A stretch of DNA of 64,000 nt, from positions 1 to 64,000 of the forward strand of contig CALXHR010000001.1 of NCBI GenBank assembly GCA_944388175.1, in the 5' to 3' direction. Position 1 is the first letter of the stretch, and every line of letters begins with the position of its first letter. Source of the stretch: an uncultured Gemmiger sp. (lineage in GTDB: Bacteria > Bacillota > Clostridia > Oscillospirales > Ruminococcaceae). The notes under the pieces are model-generated. The model was not told the origin of the DNA. It worked only from the letters and a program-made list of their open reading frames with translations, and did not search any database. The position numbers and the translations under genes are program-made. Below, piece by piece: positions 25,279 through 30,280 of this stretch.

Positions 25279-26139
25279 ATGGCGTATATTACAAAAGGCA
25301 TCGGCGGGTTTTACTACGTCCGTACAGCGCAGGGCATCGTCGAGTGTAAGGCGCGCGGCGTTTTCCGCAAGCGCGGCATCACGCCGGTGGCGGGGGATAA
25401 TGTCGTGCTCTCTGCCGACGGCAGTTTGATCGAGGAGATTCTGCCGCGCAAAAATGTGTTCGTGCGCCCGCCGGTAGCCAATTTGGATGTGCTGTTCATC
25501 GTGGCCAGCACAACGCAGCCGGTGCCCAGCACACTGGTGCTGGACGCGCTGACGTCGGCCGCCCTGTACAAGGGCGTGCAGCCGGTGCTGGTGGTGACCA
25601 AGGCGGACCTGAAAGCGGCCGACGCCCTGGCCGAAGCTTATGCGAACAGTGGTATCCCGCTTATTTTGCTGCACTACGAAAGCGGCGAAAGGCTGGATGT
25701 GGTGCGCGGGTATATCCAAGGGCACTTGTGCGCTTTTTGCGGCAACTCCGGCGTCGGGAAATCCACGCTGCTCAACGCACTCGCGCCGGAACTGCAGCGC
25801 GAGACCGGGCAGATCAGCCAGAAACTGGGCCGTGGCCGCCACACCACGCGCGAGGTGGAAATTTTCGAGATTTGCGGCGGCCGTCTGGCCGATACGCCGG
25901 GCTTTGCCAGCCTGGAAGCCCAAAAACTGGCCCGCATCCCCAAAGAGGAATTGCAGCATACCTTCCCGGAATTTGAACCCTATTTTGGGCAGTGCCGTTT
26001 CACCGGCTGTTCCCACCGTACCGAGACCGGCTGTGCGGTGCGCGCCGCTGTGGAAGCGGGCAAGATCAGCCCGTCGCGCTATGCCAGCTACCTTGCTTTG
26101 TATGAGGAAGCCAGCGCCCGGAAAGCGTGGGAACCATGA
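25279..26139 (+). CDS. rsgA: small-subunit biogenesis GTPase RsgA
   Basis: 286 residues from ATG 25279; TTG 25261 and GTG 25270 are in-frame alternatives overlapping or abutting prkC. Circularly permuted GTPase: N-terminal OB fold (VLSADGSLIEEILPRKN), G4 VVTKADL, G1 CGNSGVGKSTLLNAL, G3 DTPGFAS, and a C-terminal zinc knuckle QCRFTGCSHRTETGCAV. It checks 30S maturation. rpe, usually next in Bacillus, is absent. Confidence 0.95.
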   Translation: MAYITKGIGGFYYVRTAQGIVECKARGVFRKRGITPVAGDNVVLSADGSLIEEILPRKNVFVRPPVANLDVLFIVASTTQPVPSTLVLDALTSAALYKGVQPVLVVTKADLKAADALAEAYANSGIPLILLHYESGERLDVVRGYIQGHLCAFCGNSGVGKSTLLNALAPELQRETGQISQKLGRGRHTTREVEIFEICGGRLADTPGFASLEAQKLARIPKEELQHTFPEFEPYFGQCRFTGCSHRTETGCAVRAAVEAGKISPSRYASYLALYEEASARKAWEP

Positions 26140-26771
26140 CGGGGCGCGCTGTGGTGTTTTCAGCTGTGGAGGTCGGGCCAGAGATGGCCGGTTATCTACA
26201 GCCGGGGGATTTTATCGTGGCCTGCGACGCCGGGTACCGCAACGCCGCCCGCCTGGGGGTAAAACCGGACCTGATCGTGGGGGATTTTGATTCCGCCCCG
26301 CAGCCGCAGACCGATCGCGAAACCATCGTGCTGCCGCATGTCAAGGATGATACCGACACGCAGTTTGCCGCCCGCTGGCTGGTGGAGCACGGCTGCACCG
26401 AAGCCGTGTTGCTGGGCGCTTTGGGCGGCGCGCGTGTGGAGCATATGTTCGCCAACATTTCTACCGGCTTGTATCTTTCGCTGCACGGCGTCAAGACCAT
26501 TCTGGCCGACGCGCGCAGCGAGATGCACTACCTGCTGCCCGGCCAGCCGCTGCGCCTTGCGCGGCGGGACTGGATGTATTTGTCTGTGTTTGCGCTGGGC
26601 GCGCCGCTTTCCGGCGTGACGCTGCAGGGGGTGTACTACCCGCTGCGGGACGCCACCCTGACGGAACTGGACTACCCGCTTGGCACCAGCAATGAGTTTA
26701 CGGCCCCTGAGGCCTGCCTGCAATGCACGGCGGGCCATGGCCTGGTGGTGCTGACGCGCGCCGACGGTTGA
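26136..26771 (+). CDS. thiN: thiamine pyrophosphokinase
   Basis: 211 residues, start ATG 26136 overlapping the rsgA stop. Converts thiamine to thiamine pyrophosphate. Motifs: FIVACDAGYRNAARLG, DLIVGDFDSAPQP, and VKDDTDTQFAARW (the TDT motif), then GALGGARVEHMFANI. The C-terminal half is the beta-sandwich thiamine-binding domain. Confidence 0.93.
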   Translation: MTGRAVVFSAVEVGPEMAGYLQPGDFIVACDAGYRNAARLGVKPDLIVGDFDSAPQPQTDRETIVLPHVKDDTDTQFAARWLVEHGCTEAVLLGALGGARVEHMFANISTGLYLSLHGVKTILADARSEMHYLLPGQPLRLARRDWMYLSVFALGAPLSGVTLQGVYYPLRDATLTELDYPLGTSNEFTAPEACLQCTAGHGLVVLTRADG

Positions 26772-26798
26772 CACACATCCCCTGCCCGCGCATAGTAT
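26768..26798 (+). promoter_or_regulatory. candidate promoter of spoVM (possibly sigma-E type)
   Basis: TTGACA (26768-26773, overlapping the thiN stop) is 17 nt from CATAGTAT (26791-26798). The -10 resembles the CATA start of sigma-E/K promoters more than TATAAT; in Bacillus spoVM is transcribed in the mother cell. The sigma factor is an inference. Confidence 0.4.
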
Positions 26799-26834
26799 GG
26801 CGTACACGAACGACAGAAAGTGAGGTGTACGCCG

Positions 26835-26903
26835 ATGCATGTGGTCGTGGTCCGCTGCCCGCGCGCGCTGCGCTGGCTGCTTCGCGCAGCTTTTAAAGTA
26901 TAA
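26835..26903 (+). CDS. spoVM: stage V sporulation protein M (22-residue micro-gene)
   Basis: ATG 26835 to TAA 26903, with GAGGTG 8 nt before the start. The peptide begins MHVVVVRCPRALRWLLR and ends AAFKV. It has the SpoVM plan: a hydrophobic beta-like start, an invariant-type Pro at position 9, then a basic amphipathic helix (known SpoVM peptides: M-K-F-Y-T-I-K-L-P-K-F-L...). Its place, directly after thiN, is where spoVM lies in Bacillus, and the next genes encode the SpoIVA partner SipL and SpoIVA itself. SpoVM recognises the convex forespore membrane and anchors SpoIVA there. It is shorter than the Bacillus form (26). Confidence 0.82.
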   Translation: MHVVVVRCPRALRWLLRAAFKV

Positions 26904-26915
26904 CCGGTTTTGCAA

Positions 26916-26947
26916 AACCTCTGCCGCAAGGCAGGGGTTATTTTTTT
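26916..26947 (+). terminator. intrinsic terminator after spoVM
   Basis: A 10-bp stem (26916-26925 with 26930-26939, one G.U) and a GCAA tetraloop, then seven T at 26941-26947. It ends the thiN-spoVM transcript before sipL. Confidence 0.88.
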
Positions 26948-27010
26948 GCCGCTGCGCATATACATGCACCAGAAAGCCAACCAAGCGCTAGATGGAAAGG
27001 GGCAATCACA

Positions 27011-28561
27011 ATGGAACTCAAGGTGTTTAAGGACACCCTTGCAGCCTACGGCGGCCGGTGGGAAAGCCGGCAGGAACTGCCCGTAGAGACCGAGATTTTG
27101 ATCCCGGATTATCTGCCGGCGGTGTTCAAGATCGTCAAGTGCCGGGTGGAACCGGTGCTACTGCAGAACCGCGTCGCCGGCACCCGCTGGCAGTATGAGG
27201 GATACCTGCGCTGTACGGTATACTACCAAAGCGATGAACCGGGCTGCCGCCTGTACCGGGTGGAACAGAAATTTGCCTTTGAAAAATCGGCCGAGCTCCC
27301 GGCCGGCAGCTACGCCGAAGGCCCGGCGCAGACCTGGGGGGAACTGGAATATTGCAACTGCCGGGCAGTCAGCGAGCACCGCATCGACCTGCGCGGCGCG
27401 TACATTTTGTGCGGGGCGGTCCTGGCCAGGCGGGAGTGCGAACTGCTGACCTCGCTGGCCGATTGCGGCATTGAGCAGCGCGCCCGCACCCTGCGCGGAA
27501 TGCACCGCATCGCCGCCGAGGAAAAACCGCTGACAGCATCCACAACGCTGCCACTGCCGGAAGCCGGCGCGGCGGTGCTGGAGATTGGCGGCTGTTTTGC
27601 CCTGGGCGGGGTGACGCTGCAAACGGGCCAGGCCAGCGTGCAGGGCGCTTTGCAGGTGCAGGTGTGCTGCCAAGCGGCAGATAGCGAGGAACTGACCGTG
27701 CGCACCAAAGAAATCCCGGTGCAGCAGACCGTGGAACTGCCTGGCGCGGCGGCCGAGGATACCTGCGTGGCCTGGGGGGAGATTCAGGCATGCACGCTGG
27801 CGGCGCCAGATAGCGGCGAAGAAGGCGAGTTGAGCGTGGGGTGGAAACTGCATCTGGAAGTCTGGCGCGAGGCATCGTGTACCGTGGTTGCGGATGCCTA
27901 TTCCACCCTGTACCAGACCCAAACGGTACAGACGGCCTGCAAGCTGTTGGCCAAAACGGCAGATTTGGCCCAGACTGTCAATGTGGTGCTGCAAGACGAT
28001 TTGCCCGACCCGGATTTTACCGTAAAAGGCTGCTTTGTCACGCTGGGCAAGGCGATGCCGGTGGCGGCGGAGGATGGCGAGGGCGGCGCGCAGTTTTGCC
28101 TGTGCGGCAAAGGGACGGCGCATGTGCTTTGCGCCGATGCCCGCGGCGAGGTGACCTGTTTTGATAAAAACTTTACCTGGCGGCCGGATGGCGTGTGGCA
28201 GGGTGCAGCGCCCGATGCCTGCGCCAGTATGAGCGCCGCCGTCACCCGCGTCAGCAGCAGCAAAAACGGTGCGCAGCTGCGGGTGGAACTGGAGATCGGC
28301 GTCAGCGGCCTGCTGCTGCAGGCGTATACCGGCGACGCGTTGTGCGAGGTGGAACTGGGCGAGCCATACGAACGCCCGGCCGACGCCCCGGCGCTGTACC
28401 TCTATTACGCGGCGGCCGGGGAGCGCATTTTTGACATCGCCAAGCGGTACCATGCCCGCGCAAAAGACCTGGCGGCGGCCAACCACCTGACGTGCGACGG
28501 CGCCGCCCCGCAGGACGGCACTACGGAAGCGGCCTGCCTGTTGATCCCGGCAGCCCAGTAA
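27011..28561 (+). CDS. sipL: SipL-like DUF3794/LysM spore coat morphogenetic protein
   Basis: 516 residues. Three DUF3794-like segments (about 30-140, 165-265 and 290-390) are followed by a C-terminal LysM-like domain (about 455-510: YYAAAGERIFDIAKRYHARAKDLAAANHL). This is the plan of C. difficile SipL, which binds SpoIVA through LysM. The gene directly precedes spoIVA here, which strongly supports that role. Start ATG 27011 with AAAGGGG upstream. Upstream sequence around 26938-26966 (CATATACAT) could be a sigma-E -10, but I am not confident. Confidence 0.85.
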   Translation: MELKVFKDTLAAYGGRWESRQELPVETEILIPDYLPAVFKIVKCRVEPVLLQNRVAGTRWQYEGYLRCTVYYQSDEPGCRLYRVEQKFAFEKSAELPAGSYAEGPAQTWGELEYCNCRAVSEHRIDLRGAYILCGAVLARRECELLTSLADCGIEQRARTLRGMHRIAAEEKPLTASTTLPLPEAGAAVLEIGGCFALGGVTLQTGQASVQGALQVQVCCQAADSEELTVRTKEIPVQQTVELPGAAAEDTCVAWGEIQACTLAAPDSGEEGELSVGWKLHLEVWREASCTVVADAYSTLYQTQTVQTACKLLAKTADLAQTVNVVLQDDLPDPDFTVKGCFVTLGKAMPVAAEDGEGGAQFCLCGKGTAHVLCADARGEVTCFDKNFTWRPDGVWQGAAPDACASMSAAVTRVSSSKNGAQLRVELEIGVSGLLLQAYTGDALCEVELGEPYERPADAPALYLYYAAAGERIFDIAKRYHARAKDLAAANHLTCDGAAPQDGTTEAACLLIPAAQ

Positions 28562-28575
28562 AGGAGGGGACGACT

Positions 28576-30051
28576 GTGACCCAGCAACAAATCTATCAGA
28601 GCATCGCGCGGCGCACAGGGGGCGATATCTACCTCGGCGTCGTGGGGCCGGTGCGCAGCGGCAAAAGCACCTTTATCAAACGGTTTTCGGAACTGATGCT
28701 GCTGCCGCATATCCAAAACGAAGCGCTGCGCGCCCGCGCGGGCGACGAACTGCCGCAATCGGCGGCCGGCCGCACCATTATGACAACCGAGCCGAAATTC
28801 ATCCCGGAAAAGGCTGTCACCGTAGAACTGTCCGGCGGGGGCAGTTTCCGCGCGCGGCTGATCGACTGTGTCGGGTATATGGTGGAGGGCGCGATCGGCC
28901 ATGAGGAGAACGACGCCCCGCGCATGGTCAAGAGCCCCTGGTTCGACCACGAGGTTCCGTTTGACCTCGCGGCCGAGACTGGCACGCGGCGCGTGATCCG
29001 TGAACATGCCACCGTGGGCGTGCTGGTAACGACCGATGGCTCGGTGGCCGACCTCCCGCGGGAAAATTACTGCGAAGCTGAACGCCGCGTGGCCGAAGAA
29101 TTGGACGCCATCGGCAAACCGTATATCATCCTGCTCAACTGTGCCGAGCCGGAAGCGGAACCAGCGCGGCAGCTGGCGGCCGAATTGCAGGAACGATACC
29201 GCCATGTGGTGTTTCCCATCAACTGCACGACCATGACTGCCGAGACCGTCGACGCGCTGTTGCAGGCGCTGTTGTATGCGTTCCCCATCCAGGAAATCGC
29301 CGTCCACATGCCCGGCTGGGTGACGATGCTGGAACCCGGCCACTGGCTGCAGAGCGCGGTCTACACGGCGCTGCTGGGCTATGCGGCGCAAATCCGCATC
29401 ATGGCCGACGTGGCCGGGAAACGCCCGCAGCTGGACTGCGAATATATCGCGTCGGCGTCGCTGGAAGGCATGGACCTGGGCACCGGCACTGTGCGCATTG
29501 CGGCGGGCATTGCCCCGCATATCTTTTACCGGATTCTGGGCGAGCAGACGGGGTTGGAGATCGTTGACGAAGCCAGTCTGCTGCCCTGCGTGGTCAGCCT
29601 GGCCCGCGCCAAGCGTGCCTACGACAAGATCAAGTCGGCGCTGGAACAGGTCGAAGCGACGGGGTACGGCATCGTCATGCCCGGCATCGACGAATTGACG
29701 CTGGAAGAACCCGAGATCGTGCGCCAGGGCGGGCAGTACGGGGTACGGCTTTCCGCCAGCGCGCCCAGCCTGCACATCATGCGCGCCAACATCCATACCG
29801 AGCTTTCCCCGACGGTGGGCAGCGAACAGCAGGGGGAAGAACTCATCAAAAGCCTGCTGGCGGATTTTGAGACCGACCCCGCCAAACTGTGGGGGACCAA
29901 TATCTTTGGCAAAAGTTTGAATGAACTGGTCAGCGAGGGGGTACAGGCAAAACTGCTGCACATGCCGCAGGACGCCCGGAATCGCCTGCAGCAGACGTTG
30001 GAACGCATCATCAACGAAGGCTGCGACGGGCTGATCTGTATCTTGCTGTGA
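28576..30051 (+). CDS. spoIVA: stage IV sporulation protein A (coat assembly ATPase)
   Basis: 491 residues, like the 492 of B. subtilis. N-terminal ATPase domain: IYQSIARRTGGDIYLGVVGP, Walker A GPVRSGKSTFIKRF, TIMTTEPKFIPEKAV, switch region LIDCVGYMVEGAIGHEE. The middle and C-terminal domains end with FGKSLNELVSEGVQAKL and a short EGCDGLICILL tail. SpoIVA polymerises with ATP on the forespore surface as the coat foundation. Start GTG 28576 with AAGGAGGGG; the open frame extends upstream without homology. Confidence 0.96.
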   Translation: MTQQQIYQSIARRTGGDIYLGVVGPVRSGKSTFIKRFSELMLLPHIQNEALRARAGDELPQSAAGRTIMTTEPKFIPEKAVTVELSGGGSFRARLIDCVGYMVEGAIGHEENDAPRMVKSPWFDHEVPFDLAAETGTRRVIREHATVGVLVTTDGSVADLPRENYCEAERRVAEELDAIGKPYIILLNCAEPEAEPARQLAAELQERYRHVVFPINCTTMTAETVDALLQALLYAFPIQEIAVHMPGWVTMLEPGHWLQSAVYTALLGYAAQIRIMADVAGKRPQLDCEYIASASLEGMDLGTGTVRIAAGIAPHIFYRILGEQTGLEIVDEASLLPCVVSLARAKRAYDKIKSALEQVEATGYGIVMPGIDELTLEEPEIVRQGGQYGVRLSASAPSLHIMRANIHTELSPTVGSEQQGEELIKSLLADFETDPAKLWGTNIFGKSLNELVSEGVQAKLLHMPQDARNRLQQTLERIINEGCDGLICILL

Positions 30052-30067
30052 GATGGGGGAACCGCCA

Positions 30068-30280
30068 GTGCTGAAACGAATGAGCCGCACCGAAAAAGAG
30101 CGCCGCGCCATGCAAAGCGAACTGCAGGCAGCCCTGCGGGCCATGCGCGCCAACGAGGCCGCCTTTGAGGAAGTCCAGGACCCGGTCTGCATAGAACAGC
30201 TCACCTACCAGCATGCGGCGCTGATGTGCCGCTGCCGCGCGCTGCTGCGAGCCTTGCGGGCGGCGGGGGCGGACCCATGA
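30068..30280 (+). CDS. DUF2508 (YaaL-like) small protein
   Basis: 70 residues from GTG 30068 (GGGGGA upstream); ATG 30053 is an alternative. Mostly helical and charged: RTEKERRAMQSELQAALRAM, then FEEVQDPVCIEQLTYQHAAL. YaaL/DUF2508 genes typically precede bofA, and this one overlaps bofA by 4 nt. Function unknown. Confidence 0.72.
   Translation: MLKRMSRTEKERRAMQSELQAALRAMRANEAAFEEVQDPVCIEQLTYQHAALMCRCRALLRALRAAGADP

Follow-up and report, generated by a model that had tools for sequence, protein, structure and literature searches.

The window (the whole 64,000-nt stretch of DNA that was analysed) comes from an incomplete Gemmiger assembly of 1.75 Mb in 14 contigs (G000; 69% complete), and the features described here all lie on its forward strand. 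The gene order is fmt-rsmB-rlmN-prpC-prkC-rsgA-thiN, with rsgA and thiN assigned by profiles and the rest by ORF inspection. The gene thiN (26136..26771; thiamine pyrophosphokinase, TIGR01378, 118 bits against a cut-off of 76) is followed after 63 nt by a short ORF at 26835..26903, which we call spoVM on the grounds of conservation, selection, alignment and gene position. Another 107 nt separate this ORF from sipL (27011..28561), which encodes the SpoIVA-interacting protein with a SPOCS domain (Pfam SipL, 45.6 bits; cut-off 23.6) and a LysM domain scoring 18.4 bits, just below the Pfam cut-off of 20.9. Next comes spoIVA (28576..30051), the gene of the coat ATPase (TIGR02836, 636 bits; cut-off 460). 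The arrangement given in an earlier note on this DNA (a small frame in the gap after thiN, then the genes for SipL and SpoIVA) is borne out, the profiles for ThiN, SipL and SpoIVA all exceeding their cut-offs. The closest named SpoIVA matches are Candidatus Gemmiger excrementipullorum (93%), G. formicilis ATCC 27749 (85%) and other Gemmiger. Immediately 3' of spoIVA lies a 75-residue ORF (30053-30280) without a convincing Pfam or NCBIfam match.

The spoVM frame translates to the 22 residues MHVVVVRCPRALRWLLRAAFKV followed by a stop, a product of fewer than 30 residues, as are the 115 other clostridial peptides considered below (22-29 residues). A Shine-Dalgarno region, AAAGTGAGGTG (26817..26827), was read from the sequence 7 nt before the ATG, and by eye similar sequences precede the start in Gemmiger relatives. 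ATG is the likely start codon, since initiation at the in-frame GTG 15 nt upstream would consume the Shine-Dalgarno. Twelve nucleotides after the frame ends, an intrinsic terminator occupies 26916..26947: a 10-bp hairpin capped by a GCAA loop, then a T run (fold -17.8 kcal/mol). By our own threshold, a terminator-like signal follows spoVM in 31 of 35 Gemmiger genomes. The ribosome-binding site and the dedicated terminator that the earlier note had described are therefore both present. It also had the peptide beginning with four valines; the four valines are there, but at residues 3-6, behind Met-His.

The earlier note had made its reading depend on conservation of the frame in related genomes, and such conservation was found. 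At E 0.01 the peptide query matches 35 of 61 genomes: all 35 Gemmiger genomes, and no genome among the other 26. Every Gemmiger genome has the frame intact, at 22 or 23 residues and in one case with a GTG start. Over the first 22 codons the 35 genomes carry 35 distinct nucleotide sequences encoding 21 distinct peptides, with a pooled pS of 0.59, pN of 0.16 and pN/pS of 0.26, a ratio that understates the constraint because pS is near saturation. Cys8, Pro9, Trp14, Phe20 and Lys21 are invariant. Of the 35 sequences, 6 carry stops in one of the alternative forward frames and 10 in the other. The adjacent thiN lies 39-108 nt upstream in all 35 genomes. In 31 of them sipL lies 83-461 nt downstream; it was not found in the examined spoVM flank of G005, G021, G023 (a fragmented assembly) and G030. 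spoVM is thus bound more firmly to thiN than to sipL. We conclude that spoVM is a conserved coding frame under purifying selection, located after thiN.

We are in very little doubt that this ORF of 22 codons encodes the SpoVM of this Gemmiger species. Against B. subtilis SpoVM (query sequence identical to PDB 2MVH) it aligns without gaps over residues 1-22, with five of the 22 residues identical (Met1, Pro9, Leu12, Arg17 and Ala18), a score that 39 of 100000 shuffles equal or exceed. Like its Bacillus counterpart, the peptide is predicted to form a basic amphipathic helix: calculated from the sequence only, residues 10-22 have a hydrophobic moment of 0.83 (matched by 229 of 20000 shuffles) and a net charge of +5. 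Together with the proline at position 9, found in 35 of 35 Gemmiger sequences, this upholds, at the level of prediction, the pattern that had first suggested SpoVM. Differences from the B. subtilis system are the length (22 residues versus 26), the residues H2, C8, R13 and W14 in place of K2, L8, G13 and G14, and the adjoining sipL-spoIVA pair. In B. subtilis, too, spoVM follows thiN. The B. subtilis residues K2, I6 and I15, for which roles are named in the available text of PMC5607322, correspond to H2, V6 and L15 in Gemmiger; none is identical, the last two being conservative replacements.

Closer relatives provide the stronger evidence. Among 23 outgroup thiN loci (26 genomes), four are followed by a SpoVM-like ORF that aligns without gaps over residues 1-22, with Pro9 in G036, G040 and G044 and Ser9 in G059. 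The window peptide shares 8-11 of 22 residues with the thiN-linked peptides of three other genera (reached by 0 of 100000 shuffles each) and eight with the fourth, Ser9-bearing one (12 of 100000 shuffles). These relatives of the same order (L076, L081, L083 and L084, all 8-11/22 identical to the window peptide and all after thiN) differ from it: they are longer (26-29 residues), end in a charged tail, carry Ser or Gly at position 8 and lack Trp14; L084 further has Ser9 where Gemmiger has Pro9. In four genomes of other families (G048, G049, G059 and G338) a SpoVM-like ORF on the spoIVA strand precedes spoIVA by 1.6-1.8 kb, in G048 and G049 apart from thiN; proximity of spoVM to spoIVA is therefore not peculiar to Gemmiger. 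Gapless alignments, the thiN-spoVM order, purifying selection and the sigG-like and SpoIIE matches in the genus (see below) together sustain the original claim of a SpoVM ortholog.

How far this family extends was examined with two profiles. The first, A1 (17 rows, Gemmiger rows included), was run on 291 genomes sampled across class Clostridia and matched 112 of them, most matches covering positions 1-22 or 1-23; SpoIVA is carried by 104 of these 112, versus 208 of the full 291. The second-round profile A2 (80 rows) was built from matches in the same 291 genomes and is to that extent circular; it matched 162 genomes, 150 of them among the 208 SpoIVA carriers and 12 among the 83 genomes without a SpoIVA match. 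The 50 genomes gained over A1 comprise 46 with SpoIVA and four without. The 58 SpoIVA carriers without an A2 match either lack SpoVM or have one that is still more distant. We assembled a set of 115 peptides: each of the 111 non-Gemmiger genomes that A1 matched contributed one, G119 another, and relatives the last three. A second place in G230 without an ORF (L292), a second place in G329, and L084, a copy of L195, were left out. Most of the 115 have by eye a Shine-Dalgarno-like sequence upstream.

Counting nested starts, the window has 1699 frames of 18-60 residues that run from start to stop, and a profile of these 115 peptides ranks the spoVM ORF first among them (E 1.3e-5), with the best frame not overlapping it at E 0.3; the ranking is partly circular, as a profile holding Gemmiger rows had served to find the peptides. 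The second-round consensus is MKIVVxKxPKFLxGILKxxFxIx, and 78 of the 115 peptides have 22-24 residues, so neither the valine-rich start nor the short length of the Gemmiger peptide is odd. The earlier description of the peptide as shorter than Bacillus SpoVM holds, but such a length is ordinary for Clostridia. Cys8 occurs in one of the 115 non-Gemmiger peptides and Trp14 in none; position 2 is His, Gln or Arg in Gemmiger and Lys in 86 of the 115. As judged from these alignments, Cys8 and Trp14 distinguish Gemmiger SpoVM from the other clostridial SpoVM-like peptides.

Pro9 is the sole completely conserved residue of the alignment in PMC5607322, as far as the available text of that study goes. 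It is missing from 12 of the 115 peptides, which have Ser (10), Gly (one) or Lys (one) instead. In five of the 12 (L251, L256, L286, L287 and L305) a proline stands at position 8. Seven peptides, six of them distinct, lack proline throughout positions 7-13 (L195, L196, L237, L248, L249, L276 and L312), and all come from genomes with a SpoIVA match. Found by similarity alone, the Pro9-less peptides are putative SpoVM, and as such they would run against the invariance of Pro9.

Neither Pfam nor NCBIfam contains a profile that matches the window peptide, so that, for the profiles tried, the gene is indeed easily missed. The Pfam family PF08183 (SpoV) gives 61 bits with B. subtilis SpoVM; it exceeds its cut-off in none of the 291 Clostridia genomes and misses both the window peptide and the three thiN-linked Pro9 peptides scanned. 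Below the cut-off, at E 0.01, it has two matches in the class sample: one in G226, at a place also found by A1, and one in G119, at a place bearing the SpoVM-like ORF L314. The profile is thus not blind, merely far below its cut-off. Among the 61 relatives it exceeds the cut-off in G036 only, with two matches lying at contig starts and a third in another place; the thiN-linked SpoVM-like ORF of that genome is not among the three. Sub-cut-off PF08183 matches in Gemmiger (E up to 1) include none at the spoVM site and were treated as chance. The window peptide is therefore not filed under PF08183 as modelled, the missing score being a criterion of annotation. Neither the window peptide nor the one outgroup peptide searched matched any solved structure, and our literature search found nothing joining Gemmiger with 'sporulation genes', nor SpoVM with Ruminococcaceae. 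In the accessible portion of their 2012 paper, Galperin and colleagues note that annotation seldom recognises SpoVM, report that it was not found in several clostridia and raise the question of distant versions (PMC3533761).

Does Gemmiger sporulate? Matches of sigG strength (E <1e-98) are found in 33 of the 35 Gemmiger genomes (not G018 or G029) and SpoIIE matches in all 35. In all 61 genomes the matches to both models (TIGR02850 and TIGR02865, respectively) fall below the curated cut-offs, and the sigG model also matches non-sporing controls, so we read them as presence of the families, not as sporulation. SpoIVA is found in 34 of 35, the exception being G001, an assembly in 1110 contigs. 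Continued selection on SpoVM suggests that the coat pathway is in use. It might instead be that SpoVM was retained in a non-sporing lineage and reused in Gemmiger for some other task related to curvature. The name of the genus refers to budding, which would suit such a task. Gemmiger isolates are also reported, in the part of PMC6069880 available, without 'spore proteins', though with other sporulation genes present. Set against this are the sigG-strength and SpoIIE matches throughout most or all of the genus, sub-cut-off though they are, and the dpaA-like and yunB-like genes of G000, and we regard reuse as very improbable. There are two side observations: a genome of the same family (G035, 84% complete) has SpoIVA, no SpoIIE match and weak sigG-model scores, and two loci of Faecalibacterium, a genus regarded as non-sporing, retain a spoIVA 63-64% identical to that of the window (L115 and L116), and neither sipL nor spoVM was detected in their 6-kb flanks.

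A short ORF with an intrinsic terminator 12 nt beyond its end, ahead of sipL, could also be the leader peptide of an attenuator controlling sipL-spoIVA. Yet the frame is kept in the four genomes in which sipL was not found adjacent, selection acts on residues across the whole frame, and other genera likewise have similar peptides after thiN. Conservation of the peptide where sipL lies elsewhere disfavours this reading, and the selection on residues together with the firmer thiN link (35/35 versus 31/35 for sipL) led us to reject it as even less probable than reuse. Least credible of all is a spurious ORF open by chance in G+C-rich DNA, for which the mere 22 codons and the lack of a profile match might speak, and which is refuted by the intact frame in all 35 genomes, the pN/pS, the broken alternative frames and the first rank among the 1699.

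For spoVM as a sporulation gene, a candidate mother-cell promoter -10 is the GCATAGTATGGC box at 26790..26801. Its CATANNATGGC is conserved, 36-76 nt before the spoVM start, in 35 of 35 Gemmiger genomes; the value from mononucleotide shuffles is 0.011 per set of 35, a figure to be read with the relatedness of the 35 sequences in mind. Seven genomes have CATACAAT upstream of spoVM, which is close to the sigma-E -10 consensus; by eye, we saw no conserved -35 upstream of spoVM. In G000 the GCATAGTATGGC box recurs (L265 and L268, each at 1501-1512) 39-41 nt before dpaA-like and yunB-like genes, whose 187 and 94 bits fall below the model cut-offs of 261 and 112. The box also precedes ORFs in G004 and G026 that by eye resemble the G000 yunB. 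At the sites L270 (G000), L266 (G026) and L267, L269, L271, L273 and L274 (G004) there is no qualifying ORF just downstream. Genome-wide, the GCATANNATGGC box is not enriched over the reversed pattern (sites 4/2 in G000, 7/4 in G004 and 2/4 in G026, where the spoVM box has T before CATA and falls outside these counts). Support for the box is therefore positional only: its sharing by spoVM and the yunB-like and dpaA-like genes is possibly a mother-cell promoter signature, its sigma-factor assignment being an inference.

A second box, GCATATACATGC (26956..26967), read from the sequence between the terminator and sipL, is a candidate separate promoter of sipL-spoIVA; by eye, and uncounted, similar boxes occur in many Gemmiger spoVM-sipL gaps. 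In C. difficile, according to the available text of PMC5607322, spoVM, sipL and spoIVA are all under sigma-E and the spoIVA and sipL transcripts stand 50-100 fold above spoVM. Such a difference would fit separate promoters flanking a terminator, as in Gemmiger.

Expression, localisation and SpoIVA binding of the Gemmiger SpoVM would be those of its family. The most likely site of its synthesis would be the mother cell, during sporulation. As a basic amphipathic helix, residues 10-22 would lie in the outer forespore membrane, whose convex curvature the peptide would prefer, with Pro9 freeing the N-terminus. SpoVM would then tether SpoIVA, which would polymerise and, joined by SipL, would form the base of the coat. 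This follows the established model as set out in the accessible portions of PMC12004969 and PMC5607322, in which the helix inserts in the forespore membrane with its convex curvature, the N-terminus is set free by Pro9, and tethered SpoIVA polymerises; C. difficile SipL is reported to bind SpoIVA via its LysM domain (PMC6436350, in the part available). The window sequence holds nothing against this model, the steps of which would apply here through membership of the family. With C. difficile SpoVM, compared through the available text of PMC5607322, the Gemmiger peptide shares a clostridial setting, SipL and SpoIVA as partners, and Pro9. Two further features are those of C. difficile itself in that account: SpoVM is sigma-E-controlled, and it is largely dispensable for spore formation, spoVM mutants losing about 3-fold in resistant spores. 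The dependence of Gemmiger spores on SpoVM may likewise be slight.

Gemmiger SpoVM adds an ordinary member to a known family, one that the current Pfam profile does not recognise, and its value lies in this annotation gap and in the wider family that the peptide opens, more than in the single gene. A profile seeded with it matches 150 of the 208 SpoIVA-bearing genomes sampled, which bears on the 2012 question of distant clostridial SpoVM. A bolder reading, which we hold to be rather unlikely, is that clostridial SpoVM is larger and more varied as a family than databases suggest and can do without features learned from B. subtilis: the tail-less Gemmiger 22-mer would have its invariant Cys8 and Trp14 in place of parts of the usual membrane interface, and SpoIVA-bearing lineages without a proline at positions 7-13 would sense curvature without the proline kink. 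With the natural Pro9-less variants, evolved sequences become available for testing whether curvature sensing follows the proline-kink model.
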